Source of the DNA: Desulfobacca acetoxidans DSM 11109
GTDB lineage: Bacteria; Desulfobacterota; Desulfobaccia; Desulfobaccales; Desulfobaccaceae
NCBI RefSeq assembly: GCF_000195295.1
Contig: NC_015388.1
Coordinates: forward strand, 1,364,001 to 1,428,000
Direction of reading: 5' to 3'
Length of the DNA stretch: 64,000 bases
Below the pieces are notes generated by a model that saw nothing but the letters and a program-made list of their open reading frames with translations, was not told the DNA's origin and ran no database searches. This document shows positions 43,799-54,380 of the stretch, one piece after another (the first letter of the stretch is position 1; every line of letters begins with the position of its first letter). The position numbers and the translations under genes were made by a program.

Positions 43799-45202
43799 TC
43801 AGATAGATGATATGGTGGGGAGAGCAAAACTCTGTTCGGTACCCTCCTTCCAGCCATCCCAAACATAGTTGTCTACTTGACCAGCGGCAATGACCCGGAA
43901 AGCGAACTTGGCCTGCTCCACATAAAATTCGCAGTATGGAGCCGGAGCATGCAGGGTTTGAGAGCACATATAAATCTCCGCAGGGCAGGGAGCACCGCAG
44001 AAATGGCGAATGGCGCAGCTTCGGCAGGGTTCGAAATCCTCCACCTTGCGGCTGGTCATGTCCTGGAAGGGGCGGGTTCTGAGGATGTCCTCCACCGGAG
44101 TGTTGAAGAGATTGCCCCCCCTAAATTCCGGGATGCCGATGAACTCGCTGCAGGGGAAGAGGTCACCTCTGGCTGACAGGGCAAAGAAACAGCGTCCGCC
44201 GCCGCAGGGAGAGATGTCGCACATCAGGCGGCGGGCCAACGGTGCTACGATGCCTATGAGGATATTGGCAAAATTGGCGATGACCAGTTTGCGGCCGGTG
44301 GCCTGAAACAGATCATGGCTCCGCTCTAGGGCGGCACTGAAGTGTCGGGCAAAGACTTGGTCATCCGGTTTGAGATCACGGCCTCCGGGTTGAGTGCAAC
44401 GTACCGGATTGAGCATGGCCACCCTGACACCGGCGCCATGAAGAAATTCTACCATGTCTGTCAAACGGTCTACATTGGTTTGGGTGACGGTGCAGATGAC
44501 ACTGTAGTTTGGGTAATCTGCTAACCGGTCCAAGAGAGGAGCTACTACACCGTATACCCCGCGGCCCTGCCAGTTTTTCCGCGTTTGATCAGCAATATCC
44601 GCTACCGGAGCGTCCAGGGAGAGGCCCAGGCTGACCTGGTGCGCCTGGATAAAAGCTAATGCTGCATCGTCCAGCATAGTGCCATTGGTCTGGATGCCGA
44701 AGCGAAAGCGGTTGCCGTATCGTTCAATCCCGGCAAAAACCGCATCCCTGACCATCATCGGTTCGCTGCCATGAAATATAATCTGCGGCATGACACCCTC
44801 CGGCAGGGTACGGCCGAAGTAATCCGACAACATCTCTAATGCTTGGAGGAGCCGCAACGGCGGCATATCCATCCCGCCGAGCCGGATGTCGCTGGGGATA
44901 TAACAGTAGGAGCAATTTAGGTTGCATCGTTCTGTAGGGTTAAAATAGACCGCCGAGGGGATCAGCTCAAAGCGCAGGGTTTGCATCTCCCGCTGAAAGT
45001 GTTCCTGGTGTTCCATGAATATCTGGGGTATGAAGTTGCCTAATAAGTATTCTCCAGCCTCGGCCCGGGGAACCAGGGTCCAGAAACCGGTATCCCCTTC
45101 GATGAGGACGGCGTAATCGGGATGACCGATATCCATCAGGGAAAAGCGGGGGCCCTGCCCCACATTGGCAGAGACCCCGGCAAGCGATGTTGCAGGTTTC
45201 AA
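43799..45202 (-). CDS. cbpB: peptide-modifying radical SAM/SPASM enzyme (CbpB-like)
   Basis: A 467-residue radical SAM maturase. The 4Fe-4S/SAM motif is CNLNCSYC (Cys93, 97, 100) within VYFNPTERCNLNCSYCYIP, followed by the barrel (HGSEPMM, IQTNGTML, GLSLDAP). The C-terminal SPASM-like region (about 325-440) holds many cysteines: CDISPCGGGRC, LFPCSEF, CRSCAIRHFCGAPCPAEIYMC and YCEFY, enough for two auxiliary clusters. The TTG start has AAGGA at a 7-base spacing; the neighbouring ATG reads into a stop. It follows the 42-residue cbpA-like precursor by 15 bases and shares its riboswitch. It matches my recollection of the CbpA/CbpB predicted RiPP pair; product and role are unknown. Confidence 0.82.
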   Translation of the reverse strand: MKPATSLAGVSANVGQGPRFSLMDIGHPDYAVLIEGDTGFWTLVPRAEAGEYLLGNFIPQIFMEHQEHFQREMQTLRFELIPSAVYFNPTERCNLNCSYCYIPSDIRLGGMDMPPLRLLQALEMLSDYFGRTLPEGVMPQIIFHGSEPMMVRDAVFAGIERYGNRFRFGIQTNGTMLDDAALAFIQAHQVSLGLSLDAPVADIADQTRKNWQGRGVYGVVAPLLDRLADYPNYSVICTVTQTNVDRLTDMVEFLHGAGVRVAMLNPVRCTQPGGRDLKPDDQVFARHFSAALERSHDLFQATGRKLVIANFANILIGIVAPLARRLMCDISPCGGGRCFFALSARGDLFPCSEFIGIPEFRGGNLFNTPVEDILRTRPFQDMTSRKVEDFEPCRSCAIRHFCGAPCPAEIYMCSQTLHAPAPYCEFYVEQAKFAFRVIAAGQVDNYVWDGWKEGTEQSFALPTISSI

Positions 45203-45217
45203 GAGTGCATCCTTATC

Positions 45218-45346
45218 TTACTTCTTGTTGTCCAACAGAATGTAGTGGGATAGGCCAGTGTTGGTGCCATCGGATTTGCAGCTATAGCGGTAACCGATGG
45301 GGGCAAGTTTTTTGGAAGAATCTGGGGTAATGACCTTTTGTTGCAT
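45218..45346 (-). CDS. cbpA: 42-residue RiPP precursor peptide (CbpA-like)
   Basis: A small gene directly upstream of the radical SAM enzyme. The product starts MQQKVITPDSSKKLAP (leader-like, charged) and continues GYRYSCKSDGTNTGLSHY, then ILLDNKK to the end. The single Cys, flanked by Tyr, Ser, Lys, Asp, Thr and Asn, is a likely modification core. The ATG has AAGGAGG 7 bases upstream, a textbook ribosome binding site. An overlapping out-of-frame ATG three codons earlier is ignored. The gene lies between the riboswitch terminator and cbpB, so its expression should be controlled by cobalamin. The identity as CbpA is recalled, not searched. Confidence 0.82.
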   Translation of the reverse strand: MQQKVITPDSSKKLAPIGYRYSCKSDGTNTGLSHYILLDNKK

Positions 45347-45370
45347 CTTCCATCCTCCTTAGGATTAAAA

Positions 45371-45407
45371 TAAAAAAGGGAATCCCGTATGATACGGAAC
45401 TCCCTTT
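45371..45407 (-). terminator. riboswitch-controlled intrinsic terminator
   Basis: On the minus strand: outer stem AAAGGGA/TCCCTTT (45407-45401 with 45381-45375), inner stem CCGTA/TACGG around a TCA loop, then a T-run (45377-45372) and further Ts. It separates the B12 aptamer from cbpA and is the probable expression platform. Confidence 0.82.
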
Positions 45408-45439
45408 ACCATAAGCAGTTCACTAAATTGTGTCTGGAA

Positions 45440-45598
45440 CAGCAGGTCTTCTGGCTTTCGGATTAACCGTTGAAGGCGCAACCTTCCCACCGCAGTGGCC
45501 TGCGGCAGTGGCCGGGATATTCCCTTCGCCCTCCTCGTCCCCGATTACAGCGGCGGGACCGCCACGGATTTACACCGTGTTCCGGGATGCTGACCAAC
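45440..45598 (-). ncRNA. cobalamin (B12) riboswitch
   Basis: Read on the minus strand the element contains, in order, GTCAGCATCCCGG, CACGGTGTAAATCCGTGGC, GGTCCCGCCGCTGTAATCGG, GGCCACTGCGGTGGGAAGG and finally the B12 box AAGCCAGAAGACCTG (45457-45443). These are the conserved blocks of the adenosylcobalamin-class aptamer. With a promoter just upstream and an intrinsic terminator just downstream, it should switch off the cbpA-cbpB genes by transcription termination when cobalamin is plentiful. Confidence 0.93.
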
Positions 45599-45604
45599 AT
45601 CTAA

Positions 45605-45633
45605 TTCATACTTAATCCTCCCGCCTTTGTCAA
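45605..45633 (-). promoter_or_regulatory. sigma-70-type promoter of the riboswitch-cbpA-cbpB unit
   Basis: On the minus strand TTGACA (45633-45628), 17-base spacer, TATGAA (45610-45605). The predicted start (about 45598) coincides with the beginning of the aptamer. Confidence 0.72.
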
Positions 45634-50993: not shown

Positions 50994-51176
50994 GTCGTCT
51001 ATGTGATATATCCTATAGTATTTACTAACAAAACAGAAGGCGTCCCCCCTGCCAAGAAGAGCCGCCTTCTGAGGAATCGCACCTCTTAACCGCGACCCCC
51101 TATCTCTTTTCTATCAGAGATGGAGGGCGCTGTCAAAAAGTGTGTTCCATCATTATACGGGGAAAGGAGATTGGAG

Positions 51177-53399
51177 ATGTGGAGGGTTAATTGGGCAAAG
51201 ATTTTCGGGTGTGTGGGATTATGGCTGGTCCTGCTGTCGATGCTGGCCCTGGGGGAGGAAACAGGGTCGGTTGAAAGCCCGCCGGGGCAGGAAGAGGAAA
51301 CCCGGGCGGACAAACCGGTCACGGTGGAGGAACTGCCTCAGATTGAGGTTCATTCCTTTGCCGAAAAAGCGGCCACCAGCAGCGTCGTTACCAAAGAAGA
51401 CATCAGCCTCGGACCATATCAAAATCTGCCCGGATACCTGGAAGATCAGGCCGGTCTGGATATGACTCGCCGCTCCCTGTTGGGGGTGAAAGCCAACCAG
51501 GTATCCATCCGGGGATTTGATGAAGGCCGGTACCAGGTTTACCTAAATGGCCGGTCTTGGAAAGGCTCCGGGGTAAAGGGCGGTTTTTTCGTTGATTGGG
51601 CTACCATCACCACCGAGGACCTGGAACGCCTGGAAATTATCCGGGGGCCGCTGTCGGCGGAATATCCCAACACCCTGGGAGGGGTAATCACCATCAACAC
51701 GCAAAGGGGAACCAAGGAGCCCAAGATCTCTTTAGACACCTATTGGGGCAGTTGGGCGACGGAGAGCTACCGTTTTTTGACCACAGGCAGCTATGGACCC
51801 GTGCAGTACGCTTTGGGGGTCAACTATGGTAATAGCGACGGGTATCTCAGGAATAATTTTATCCGCGATCGGGGGAACTTTAGTGGCAGCTTCACCTATT
51901 CCTTCCCCTGGGACCTAAGCTTGACCGGCTCGGCCCGCTATTTTACTCAAGAAACCGGTTTGATTATCTATAACTGGCCTGATTCGCCATTTTACAACCC
52001 TGACTATCCTGAGAGCGATGCTGACTGGCTTTATGGACCGTATCTCAACTTTCTGGATCAGATCACCGGTCAAAACGCCCAGACTAAGCAATGGTTGGGA
52101 AGGACTGCCGGAGACAACAGTTACGTTCGTACGCAGCGGTACGAGTTTGACCTGGAAGGCAAGCAAAATTTCTGGTATGGCGCGGGGGAATTTCATCTCT
52201 TTTATTGTCAGGCCACACGGTCAGAACATTATTACGCCATGAACAACCCGAATAAGTTAATCGCGTCGCGCGGGAGCTGGGATGAAGATACCTGGGGTTG
52301 GAACTTCAAGGTTCGCCAAACCCCGGGAAAAGTTCGCCTGGGTTTCGGTCTGGAAGGGAATTATTATGGCTTCGGCGGCGTGCAATATACTGACCTAGAC
52401 CCGAATTATTTTTCTCCGGCAGTATATTTAAATTACATGACCTTCCCCCCCACCCCACGCCCCATCCAAGGCATGAGAAATGCGGCCAAGATGCATGGCG
52501 GCTTCGTGGACGCGTCCCTTCCCCTTACCAAGTACTTTGAGCTCTACCTGGGACTGCGTTATGACAATTATGATGCTGCGGATCCAGGAATCAAAAACTC
52601 CAAAGGTCTACGCGCCGACTTCCTGAGTCCTAAATGTACCTTGACCATCCGGCCCACGGACACCACTGAAGCCTATCTGTCGGCCAATTATAGCAGCCAT
52701 TTTCCCAACCTGACGGAGTGGTGCGCATTTTGGGTCGGTGCCAGCGTCCCCACCGGGCAGCCAGTTGTCTCTCCGGAATTCGGCATGCAATACGAGGCCG
52801 GGATCACCCAGCAGTTGCCCTGGAATTCCATGCTGCGGATCCGGAGTTACTATTACGACATAAACGATTATATCCGACAGATGTTTAGTTCAGCCTTCAG
52901 CCCGGGCGGCAGGGTGGTCTATAACCTCGACCTGGCCAAAATCAGAGGCGTCGAAGTGGAAGGACACATCCCCTTGCCTTACAACCTGGCGGCCTTCGCT
53001 AATTACACCTGGCAGCAGACCAGCACCAGCCCCGATCCTTTGGGCGGCGGGGTGCAAAAGCTCACTGAATATCCGGAGCATAAAGCCAATGTCGGCCTGA
53101 AGTATAAGGCGCCCAACGGGGCGGAAGGCAAGCTTTCCCTGCGCCTGGTCTCCCATCGCAAGCAGTACACCGTCTCCGGGGTTTCTGCGAGTAATGTGGT
53201 CACCGGCGTCACCTTAAGACCGATGAAAGGTTTCTTCAATATTAATCTGGAGGGTCGTTACCCGGTGGTGGAACGCTATGGCGTAAAAACCTTCGCATAT
53301 TGCGGCGTGCAAAACCTCACCGGCGAGTTCTATGAAGAAAGCGCCGGTTATCCCATGCCCAGCGCTACCATCTATGGCGGGTTGCAGGCGCGTTATTAA
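51177..53399 (+). CDS. TonB-dependent outer-membrane receptor
   Basis: A 740-residue receptor: signal peptide about 1-26, an acidic N-terminal extension (VESPPGQEEETRADKP), a TonB-box-like LPQIEVHSF, the plug domain (NLPGYLEDQAGLDMTRRS, VSIRGFDEGRYQVYLNGR, LEIIRGPLSAEYPNTLGGVI) and a large beta-barrel ending in YGGLQARY. The ATG at 51177 has AAAGGAG 7 bases upstream; an earlier in-frame ATG (51120) has no such site. It lies 39 bases before an exported tetrapyrrole-methylase-like gene, suggesting a corrinoid, haem or other tetrapyrrole ligand, which is inference from context only. Confidence 0.9.
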   Translation: MWRVNWAKIFGCVGLWLVLLSMLALGEETGSVESPPGQEEETRADKPVTVEELPQIEVHSFAEKAATSSVVTKEDISLGPYQNLPGYLEDQAGLDMTRRSLLGVKANQVSIRGFDEGRYQVYLNGRSWKGSGVKGGFFVDWATITTEDLERLEIIRGPLSAEYPNTLGGVITINTQRGTKEPKISLDTYWGSWATESYRFLTTGSYGPVQYALGVNYGNSDGYLRNNFIRDRGNFSGSFTYSFPWDLSLTGSARYFTQETGLIIYNWPDSPFYNPDYPESDADWLYGPYLNFLDQITGQNAQTKQWLGRTAGDNSYVRTQRYEFDLEGKQNFWYGAGEFHLFYCQATRSEHYYAMNNPNKLIASRGSWDEDTWGWNFKVRQTPGKVRLGFGLEGNYYGFGGVQYTDLDPNYFSPAVYLNYMTFPPTPRPIQGMRNAAKMHGGFVDASLPLTKYFELYLGLRYDNYDAADPGIKNSKGLRADFLSPKCTLTIRPTDTTEAYLSANYSSHFPNLTEWCAFWVGASVPTGQPVVSPEFGMQYEAGITQQLPWNSMLRIRSYYYDINDYIRQMFSSAFSPGGRVVYNLDLAKIRGVEVEGHIPLPYNLAAFANYTWQQTSTSPDPLGGGVQKLTEYPEHKANVGLKYKAPNGAEGKLSLRLVSHRKQYTVSGVSASNVVTGVTLRPMKGFFNINLEGRYPVVERYGVKTFAYCGVQNLTGEFYEESAGYPMPSATIYGGLQARY

Positions 53400-53438
53400 C
53401 TTCTTACAACCGTCTTGTTGCAATCAAAAGGGGGAAAA

Positions 53439-54380
53439 ATGATGATCAAAGAGAAGTTGCTGCTTATGTTTCTGACCGGTTGCTTATGCCTTGCTTGGGG
53501 GACGATTTCCGGAGTTGCAGCCCCCTCGGCCCCGGGAAAATTTTACCTCGTCGGCACCGGTCCGGCCGGCCCGGAACACGCCACCCTGAAGGCCATGGAT
53601 ACCATAAATAAGGCAGACCTAATCCTCTGTCATCCGGAGCTGCAGAAACTGTTCCAGTCATGTCTCAACGGCAAAAAGGTGGAAGACCCCTGGAAGGAGC
53701 TGTGGTGGCACCAGGGGAAGATGTGGATAATGTTGCTGCCCAATCTCCCTCTGGAGGAAAGACGCGCCTTAGTGGAGGAAAAGATGCGGCAACGGGATAA
53801 ATTTGTCCAGCGGGTCAAGGGTCTCCTGGACCAGGGCCAAAAGGTGGTCCTGTTGGACGGCGGCGACCCTACGGTTTACAGCCGGGCTTATTGGCTCATG
53901 GAAGGGTTGAACGACGATCGGGTGGAGATCATCCCCGGGGTGGGAGCCTTGTCCGCGTGCATGGCCGCCTTAAAGCGCCCGAGCACCGGCGGGGAAGCCC
54001 GCTTCATGTCTCAGACGGCGGGATATTGCTTCTTCGGCAAGCCCGACCGGGATGACCTGGCCCGGGATTTTGCGCGGATTTCCGGCACCCTGGTGGTTTA
54101 CTCGGGTTTAAAAGAAGCCAATGATATTTTTACCACTTTAAAGAAATATAACCCGGAAGACCTGCCAGCGGCGGTGGTCTATTTCGCAGGCTTTCCGGAT
54201 AAAGAAAAAATTGTCAAGGGAACCATGAAGAATATCCGGGAAAAGATCGCCGCCCAAAAGGAGGAATTTATGGGGTTGATTATTGTAGGTCGGTGTCTGG
54301 ACGGCGCCCGTTTCCCCAGGTCGGTGTTGAACCTGCCGGAGCGGTCTTCCGGGGAAAAGCCGAGCAAGGGCCAACCGTAA
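53439..54380 (+). CDS. exported tetrapyrrole (corrin/porphyrin) methylase-like protein
   Basis: A 313-residue protein of the tetrapyrrole methylase fold used by cobalamin and sirohaem methyltransferases. The SAM-binding start is KFYLVGTGPAGPEHATLKAM (about 34-53); the second signature is LLDGGDPTVYSRAYW, followed by VEIIPGVGALSACMAAL. Unlike cytoplasmic family members, the fold is preceded by an export signal: MMIKEK, a hydrophobic stretch, a lipobox-like LTGC (Cys15), and a second possible cleavage site at GVAA. Because SAM is not expected outside the cytoplasm, the protein may bind a tetrapyrrole rather than methylate it. It is in operon with the TonB receptor. A run of Gs precedes the tandem ATGs. 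Confidence 0.8.
   Translation: MMIKEKLLLMFLTGCLCLAWGTISGVAAPSAPGKFYLVGTGPAGPEHATLKAMDTINKADLILCHPELQKLFQSCLNGKKVEDPWKELWWHQGKMWIMLLPNLPLEERRALVEEKMRQRDKFVQRVKGLLDQGQKVVLLDGGDPTVYSRAYWLMEGLNDDRVEIIPGVGALSACMAALKRPSTGGEARFMSQTAGYCFFGKPDRDDLARDFARISGTLVVYSGLKEANDIFTTLKKYNPEDLPAAVVYFAGFPDKEKIVKGTMKNIREKIAAQKEEFMGLIIVGRCLDGARFPRSVLNLPERSSGEKPSKGQP

Follow-up and report, generated by a model that had tools for sequence, protein, structure and literature searches.

Architecture of the locus

The window, i.e. the whole 64-kb stretch of the Desulfobacca acetoxidans genome that was analysed, carries on its minus strand (45633 to 43799) a short, probably cobalamin-controlled unit. It consists of a promoter-like site, a cobalamin riboswitch aptamer, an intrinsic terminator, a gene for a 42-aa precursor peptide (cbpA) preceded by a good ribosome binding site and, after a gap of 15 nt, a gene for a radical SAM enzyme (cbpB) (Table 1). 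A previous sequence-only reading of this DNA had predicted these elements in this order, and direct reading of the sequence finds all of them in their predicted places. The promoter is the one element that has to be qualified: its sequence is present, but it is only promoter-like, and a consensus promoter scan did not list it because its final T is missing. The predicted aptamer scores above the gathering threshold of RF00174 in an alignment that spans the full model length (1-189), so that it passes the RF00174 search whose failure the sequence-only reading had named as a refutation. A second covariance model, derived from nine host riboswitches of this class that do not precede cbpA, matches it too (91.7 bits). 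The terminator hairpin (z = -5.6; 0 shuffles equally stable) is probably the expression platform of the riboswitch.

Table 1 Features of the cbpAB unit in the window
Feature	Position	Strand	Evidence
Promoter-like site, TTGACA-17-TATGAA	45605..45633	-	Read by eye; plausible only
Cobalamin riboswitch aptamer	45424..45630	-	RF00174, 74.1 bits, E 2e-16, gathering 31.5
Intrinsic terminator, 15-pair stem and T-rich tail	45375..45407	-	Fold -21.6 kcal/mol
cbpA ribosome binding site, TAAGGAGG	45354..45361	-	Sequence; seven bases before ATG
cbpA, 42-aa precursor, MQQKVITPDSSKKLAPIGYRYSCKSDGTNTGLSHYILLDNKK	45218..45346	-	TIGR04164, 60.2 bits, cut-off 35
cbpB, 467-aa radical SAM/SPASM enzyme, TTG start	43799..45202	-	TIGR04163, 643.8 bits, cut-off 375
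CbpB radical SAM CxxxCxxC motif, C93, C97, C100	44903..44926	-	Invariant in 50 aligned CbpB
CbpB seven-Cys SPASM region, C333, C351, C393, C396, C402, C406, C424	43931..44206	-	Invariant in 50 aligned CbpB

The profile searches that the sequence-only reading had proposed for both genes place them far above the cut-offs of two NCBIfam families, TIGR04164 ('cobo_pep', CbpA) and TIGR04163 ('rSAM_cobopep', CbpB), in agreement with the family name and the RiPP-type architecture that it had given. The two genes are adjacent, no difference in kind separates them from these families, and the assignment of the window pair and its architecture to CbpA/CbpB is practically certain. Judged by its sequence, the window copy is intact and in no way unusual for this pair, which NCBIfam catalogues without an assigned product or function; a literature search found no paper on the pair or naming it. 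What the present analysis adds is the placement of cbpAB in B12 operons across phyla. The neighbours in the window itself are unrelated (a universal stress protein, a TauE-type permease and a diguanylate cyclase) and no B12 gene adjoins cbpAB there, an isolation that counts against a role in B12 assembly.

Conservation of the pair and the putative modification

A genome scan retrieved 421 relatives, the best 80 of which were analysed as loci. Three of these 80 end at contig edges before the cbpA position; in the 77 with enough sequence, a CbpA-type ORF always lies directly upstream of cbpB. The same holds for 22/22 further Desulfobacterota matches (partly from the same species as the 80) and for 25/25 untruncated loci of three other phyla. 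The TIGR04164 profile detects one CbpA in 20 of the 23 Desulfobacterota that have CbpB and in 0/7 genomes of this phylum that lack it; in the remaining 3/23 the peptide was found by pattern search. The sequence-only reading had staked itself on this adjacency, and cbpA adjoins cbpB everywhere it was checked. The nearest relatives of the window CbpB include Desulfobacca. The scores of TIGR04163 over 247 Desulfobacterota genomes fall into two well-separated groups, members above 440 bits and other radical SAM enzymes below 124. The next-best matches of the window CbpB, to PapB (NF047865, freyrasin-type ranthipeptide maturases; 122 bits, cut-off 340) and to DynA (NF041298; 110 bits, cut-off 450), are both far below threshold.

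The 78 aligned CbpA peptides share the core R-x2-C-x(5-7)-G-L-[SA]-H-[YF]-[ILV]. The search pattern derived from it, in which C, G, L and H are obligatory and R, the S/A position and the aromatic residue vary within small sets, has 78 matches across 0.95 Mb of related loci. Of these, 77 are single copies upstream of cbpB, one per locus, and 0/1480 shuffled upstream regions contain the pattern, so chance is excluded for cbpA. With start codons picked by ribosome-binding site, the peptides are 29-55 aa long and Lys-rich, 77/78 have a single Cys, and no signal peptide is evident in them by eye. The window peptide, with its 42 residues and one Cys, matches no Pfam family. The compact motif GYRYSCKSDGTNTGLSHY that the sequence-only reading had highlighted is thus conserved in part: R..C and GL[SA]H[YF] recur in the alignment, while the Asp does not.

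CbpB contains the Pfam domains Radical_SAM and SPASM. Its AlphaFold2 model is confident (pLDDT 88.7), and the closest solved structure is CteB (TM 0.67-0.74; profile E 4.5e-34), the likewise radical SAM/SPASM enzyme of the CteA/CteB system (SCIFF/ranthipeptides). Both partners differ from that system. SCIFF peptides have six Cys instead of one, and CteB has an RRE, which neither fold nor sequence comparison recognises at the N-terminus of CbpB, a point against the explanation favoured below. The first 82 residues are modelled as three strands followed by two helices, an RRE-like order, and the full-length model aligns to the RRE-bearing CteB; taken alone, the domain hits no Pfam family, and Foldseek finds nothing significant for it in the PDB. 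CbpA is most probably the substrate of CbpB and modified by it. Since the closest fold is that of CteB but neither Pfam nor Foldseek recognises an RRE, a Cys thioether would only be the favoured chemistry, at slightly less than even chances. CteB was reported to link Cys32 to Thr37 or Thr34 (PMC8326336). A Cys-Thr link was rejected as a general feature of CbpA: the Thr is replaced by Val, Ala or Ile in 17/78 peptides, and a divergent Omnitrophota type (CAKTANGLSH) lacks Thr at the CteA-like position. A ranthipeptide link between Cys and Asp at CKSDG was likewise rejected as a family feature. Freyrasin has such a link, but this Asp is missing from most CbpA, and therefore it is not expected in general.

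Probable control by cobalamin riboswitches

Among the best 80 of the 421 relatives, 74 loci had at least 600 nt upstream of cbpA or a riboswitch match. The covariance model of the nine host riboswitches places a cobalamin riboswitch directly upstream of cbpA in 66 of them, its core ending 104-331 nt before the gene. Seven of the eight others are inside B12-synthesis operons (L059, L062, L072, L078, L083, L085 and L090); L083 was assigned to this group by an upstream cobA and a CbpB near-identical to that of L072, and L059 and L085 have a riboswitch far upstream, near the fragment head. This leaves L066 as the only one of the 74 with neither an adjacent riboswitch nor a B12 operon. The 22 further Desulfobacterota matches have a riboswitch in 21 cases, the exception being an operon-embedded copy (G123) from the same genome as L059. 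In the Omnitrophota, twelve of the 17 embedded copies have a riboswitch 4-8 kb upstream, at the operon head, and three (L153, L156 and L158) directly before cbpA. Judging from these leaders, cbpAB appears to be controlled together with the B12 pathway nearly everywhere, and it is very likely repressed by corrinoid.

The host genome (3,282,536 bases, a single contig) has twelve cobalamin riboswitches. One precedes the operon cbiM-cbiK-cbiA-cbiC-cbiD, and others are neighbours of TonB receptors similar to those for B12 or heme, in one case followed by a BtuF-like protein. The host therefore very probably makes its own corrinoid, and its cbpAB belongs to the same regulon as its B12 genes.

Two other regions of this genome may be mentioned. 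At 900982-906804, three cobalamin riboswitches stand within about 6-7 kb before predicted secreted proteins, one of which has HAF repeats; this cluster was described as logic gates with c-di-GMP and c-AMP-GMP riboswitches (PMC9481103). At 51120-54380 of the window (plus strand), a tetrapyrrole-methylase protein (PF00590, 124.6 bits) comes after a TonB-dependent receptor. This methylase has an apparent signal peptide and is possibly exported; no cobalamin riboswitch was found at this place. Tetrapyrrole methyltransferases beside ligand-gated channels have been reported from Pelobacter carbinolicus (PMC3543383).

Cobalamin operons around cbpAB

In several relatives the pair is embedded among B12 genes. 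The neighbours in exemplar loci were verified partly by NCBIfam/Pfam and the rest by BLAST (including cobA and cbiA of L059), and most gene names in the Omnitrophota loci derive from BLAST to verified exemplars. The arrangements are cobA-cbiA-cbiC-cbpAB-cbiX-cbiM (L059), cobA-cbiA-cbiC-cbpAB-cbiK (L072), cobA-cbiA-cbpAB-cbiC (L078), cbiO-cbpAB-cbiX-cbiD (L085), cbiB-cobD-cbpAB (L062) and cbpAB-cobT (L067 and L068). In the Omnitrophota, 17/20 copies lie in a same-strand run with B12 genes, with cobU/T/S, cobD, cbiP and cbiB as recurrent partners, often accompanied by cbi ring genes. The operon of L163-L167 reads cobUTS-cobD-cbiP-cbiB-cbpAB-cbiA-cbiX-cbiC-cbiM-cbiQ-cbiD behind a riboswitch at its head; L153, L156 and L158 show riboswitch-cbpAB-phosphatase-cobU-cobT-cobS-cobD-cbiP-cbiB. 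Others are of a salvage type, such as cobU-cbpAB-cobT-cobS (L168) and cobU-cobT-cobS-cbiB-cobD-cbpAB-btuF (L152). In the stretch read of L152, L159 and L168 there are uptake and late-assembly genes and no ring or chelatase genes. The exceptions in this phylum are L157 and L161, which have neither a B12 operon nor a riboswitch, and L160, which only has its own riboswitch.

This embedding is concentrated in one CbpB subclade of the first locus set and the window copy belongs to another, which counts against a role of the window pair in B12 assembly. What supports the transfer of function to the window copy is therefore the riboswitch that it shares, the conservation of the peptide core and the scattered B12 neighbours of cbpAB in other CbpB clades (L029, L057 and L091).

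The gene neighbourhoods also bear on what a modified CbpA could do. It might leave the cell to scavenge cobalt or corrinoid, as a cobalophore for example, and be re-imported by TonB/BtuFCD. Methanobactin provides an analogy, and repression by B12 and the BtuF, BtuC or TonB genes beside the pair in some Omnitrophota would be in line with it. Nevertheless, no recurrent exporter or leader peptidase was found in the neighbour clusters of the best 80 of the 421 loci, many units are made up of cbpA and cbpB alone, and the short Lys-rich peptides show no signal peptide by eye, which makes export decidedly unlikely. Alternatively, CbpA could be the carrier on which a small molecule for B12 assembly is built by CbpB together with other enzymes, in the manner of PQQ; this molecule might be a redox cofactor or a lower ligand of an unusual kind. 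The gene after cbpB is cobT, for lower-ligand activation, in L067, L068 and L168, and GL[SA]H[YF] terminates in His and an aromatic residue; yet the same neighbour clusters contain no recurrent additional tailoring or protease gene, and we regard this scenario as highly unlikely. A small peptide with a CteB-like maturase could also suggest that CbpA regulates or signals within the B12 regulon, or that it is a thioether peptide involved in quorum-type communication like that suggested for SCIFF peptides. A quorum-sensing role of SCIFF ranthipeptides is indicated by a title cited in PMC8326336. Operon embedding better fits a part of the pathway, however, and no receptor or exporter lies near the pair in the best 80 of the 421 loci, so that signalling is very improbable.

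Distribution relative to corrinoid synthesis

CbpB is present in 23/247 Desulfobacterota, 20/193 Omnitrophota, 8/241 genomes of the phylum of L090 and 2/121 of that of L085. All CbpB-positive Desulfobacterota (23/23) have CbiD, against 31/57 CbpB-negative ones (Fisher 3e-5, kinship ignored; the 57 were hand-picked, mostly one per family). Outside Desulfobacterota the association is looser, CbiD being found in 14/22 CbpB genomes, mostly drafts of uncertain completeness, which counts against the link; the genome of L062 (G250), for instance, has no CbiD match. Most Desulfobacterota with CbiD are without CbpB, and CbpB is therefore not essential for B12. A link to CODH/ACS is weak (21/23 CbpB-positive, 37/57 CbpB-negative).

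No pathway gap that cbpAB would fill is visible among these genomes, which counts against a role of the pair in B12 assembly. Its identity as the missing precorrin-6A reductase was rejected, as CbiJ is absent from 53/54 CbiD-positive Desulfobacterota with or without CbpB, and so was a replacement of cobalt import, as CbiM is present in 21/23 CbpB-positive and 26/31 CbpB-negative genomes. The presence of CbiJ, the known precorrin-6A reductase family, in just 1/54 Desulfobacterota genomes with CbiD is an observation in its own right and implies that another enzyme must carry out this reduction.

The sequence-only reading had suggested that the modified peptide helps to acquire, replace or sense cobalamin or cobalt. 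The position of the relatives inside corrinoid synthesis and salvage operons and the presence of CbiD in all CbpB-bearing Desulfobacterota narrow this to corrinoid assembly or handling and disfavour replacement. A substitute for a B12-dependent reaction under starvation would be expected to be repressed by B12, like alternative isozymes such as MetE, but the operons that contain cbpAB are those of B12 synthesis and salvage, the pair is not placed next to B12-dependent enzymes, and it occurs together with CbiD. We consider such a substitution extremely improbable.

Another conceivable role is that of a Co(II) chaperone for the cobalt-early chelatase CbiK/CbiX, i.e. a peptide counterpart of CobW. 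In line with it are the invariant Cys and His of CbpA, the cbiK, cbiX or cbiM genes directly downstream of cbpB in L059, L072 and L085, and the frequency of CbiK (21/23 CbpB-positive versus 18/31 CbpB-negative Desulfobacterota with CbiD). In the aerobic B12 pathway cobalt is chaperoned by CobW, a G3E GTPase that has a CxCC site and serves CobNST (PMC7689651). Its job, metal supply under limitation, is possibly comparable, but CbpA is an unrelated peptide of 42 aa with one Cys, no Pfam match and none of the G3E GTPase and CxCC features of CobW/COG0523, and membership is not claimed. In addition, no cobalt insertion is expected from the operons of L152, L159 and L168, which show uptake and late genes alone, the genome without a CbiD match also has the pair, two CbpB-positive genomes are without CbiK and, according to a review, CbiK itself handles metal supply and insertion (PMC7689651). 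A chaperone for the chelatase thus seems unlikely. Since several Omnitrophota operons combine cbpAB with just salvage and late genes, the step shared by all these contexts would more probably belong to the late assembly or the handling of the corrinoid than to the insertion of cobalt.

A proposed role in corrinoid handling

The enzyme list of corrinoid biosynthesis is regarded as nearly complete. The occurrence of cbpAB in cobalamin operons of Omnitrophota, Verrucomicrobiota, Desulfobacterota and Chloroflexota nevertheless suggests an accessory factor that nobody has assigned, and the B12 regulation of standalone cbpAB almost everywhere supports the same suggestion. Starting from the computed features (family membership, riboswitch and terminator, strict pairing, and placement in the B12 regulon and operons), it is likely that cbpAB serves corrinoid assembly or salvage. 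The best overall explanation, to which we give a probability of roughly 55%, is that CbpB-modified CbpA is a B12-repressed intracellular factor that handles corrinoid or cobalt. Adenosylcobalamin or a related corrinoid, when abundant, would bind the leader, the terminator would form and the pair would be switched off; under corrinoid shortage, cbpA and cbpB would be transcribed. The CteB-like CbpB would then modify CbpA inside the R..C(x5-7)GL[SA]H[YF] core, a radical crosslink or an oxidation being the most likely change, and the small modified peptide would not leave the cell, where it would handle corrinoid or cobalt. It would act in a step common to de novo synthesis and salvage, candidates being the amidation of cobyric acid or cobinamide, aminopropanol attachment, nucleotide-loop assembly, or the transfer of intermediates between these enzymes.

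The conserved His and Cys of CbpA would suit a peptide that binds corrinoid or cobalt, and yet the more specific proposal of a binding carrier is doubtful. A broader formulation can be put forward tentatively: in anaerobes of several phyla, a radical-SAM-modified ribosomal peptide may be a working part of the B12 pathway. It could be a carrier whose invariant His and Cys bind corrinoid or cobalt and which hands intermediates on among the enzymes of uptake, adenosylation and the nucleotide loop, or it could be the source of an unusual B12 building block. If true, RiPP chemistry would gain a new role in primary metabolism, with the modified peptide acting as a carrier, a cobalt donor or a precursor. 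In any case, the family-wide context ties cbpAB to corrinoid assembly and salvage, and this makes its function testable.

Other genes of the cobalamin loci

Some further genes near cbpAB deserve mention. CbiK homologues at about 3454-4485 of L029 and at 9711-10601 of L072 start with what resembles a signal peptide or a lipoprotein signal, which would fit a periplasmic chelatase. In L163-L165, at +2.9 to +3.9 kb from cbpB in its orientation, CbiX-like chelatases have a Cys-rich N-terminal extension (ACxxFPCHxxLEDCxFCYCPFYPC) ahead of the chelatase domain. Finally, an asparagine-synthase-like protein and a Dph6-like ATP pyrophosphatase flank cbpAB in L152 (7750-8670 and 10395-11060); the two recur in the Omnitrophota salvage operons L152, L155 and L062/L178, and one or the other is present in L159, L169 and L170.
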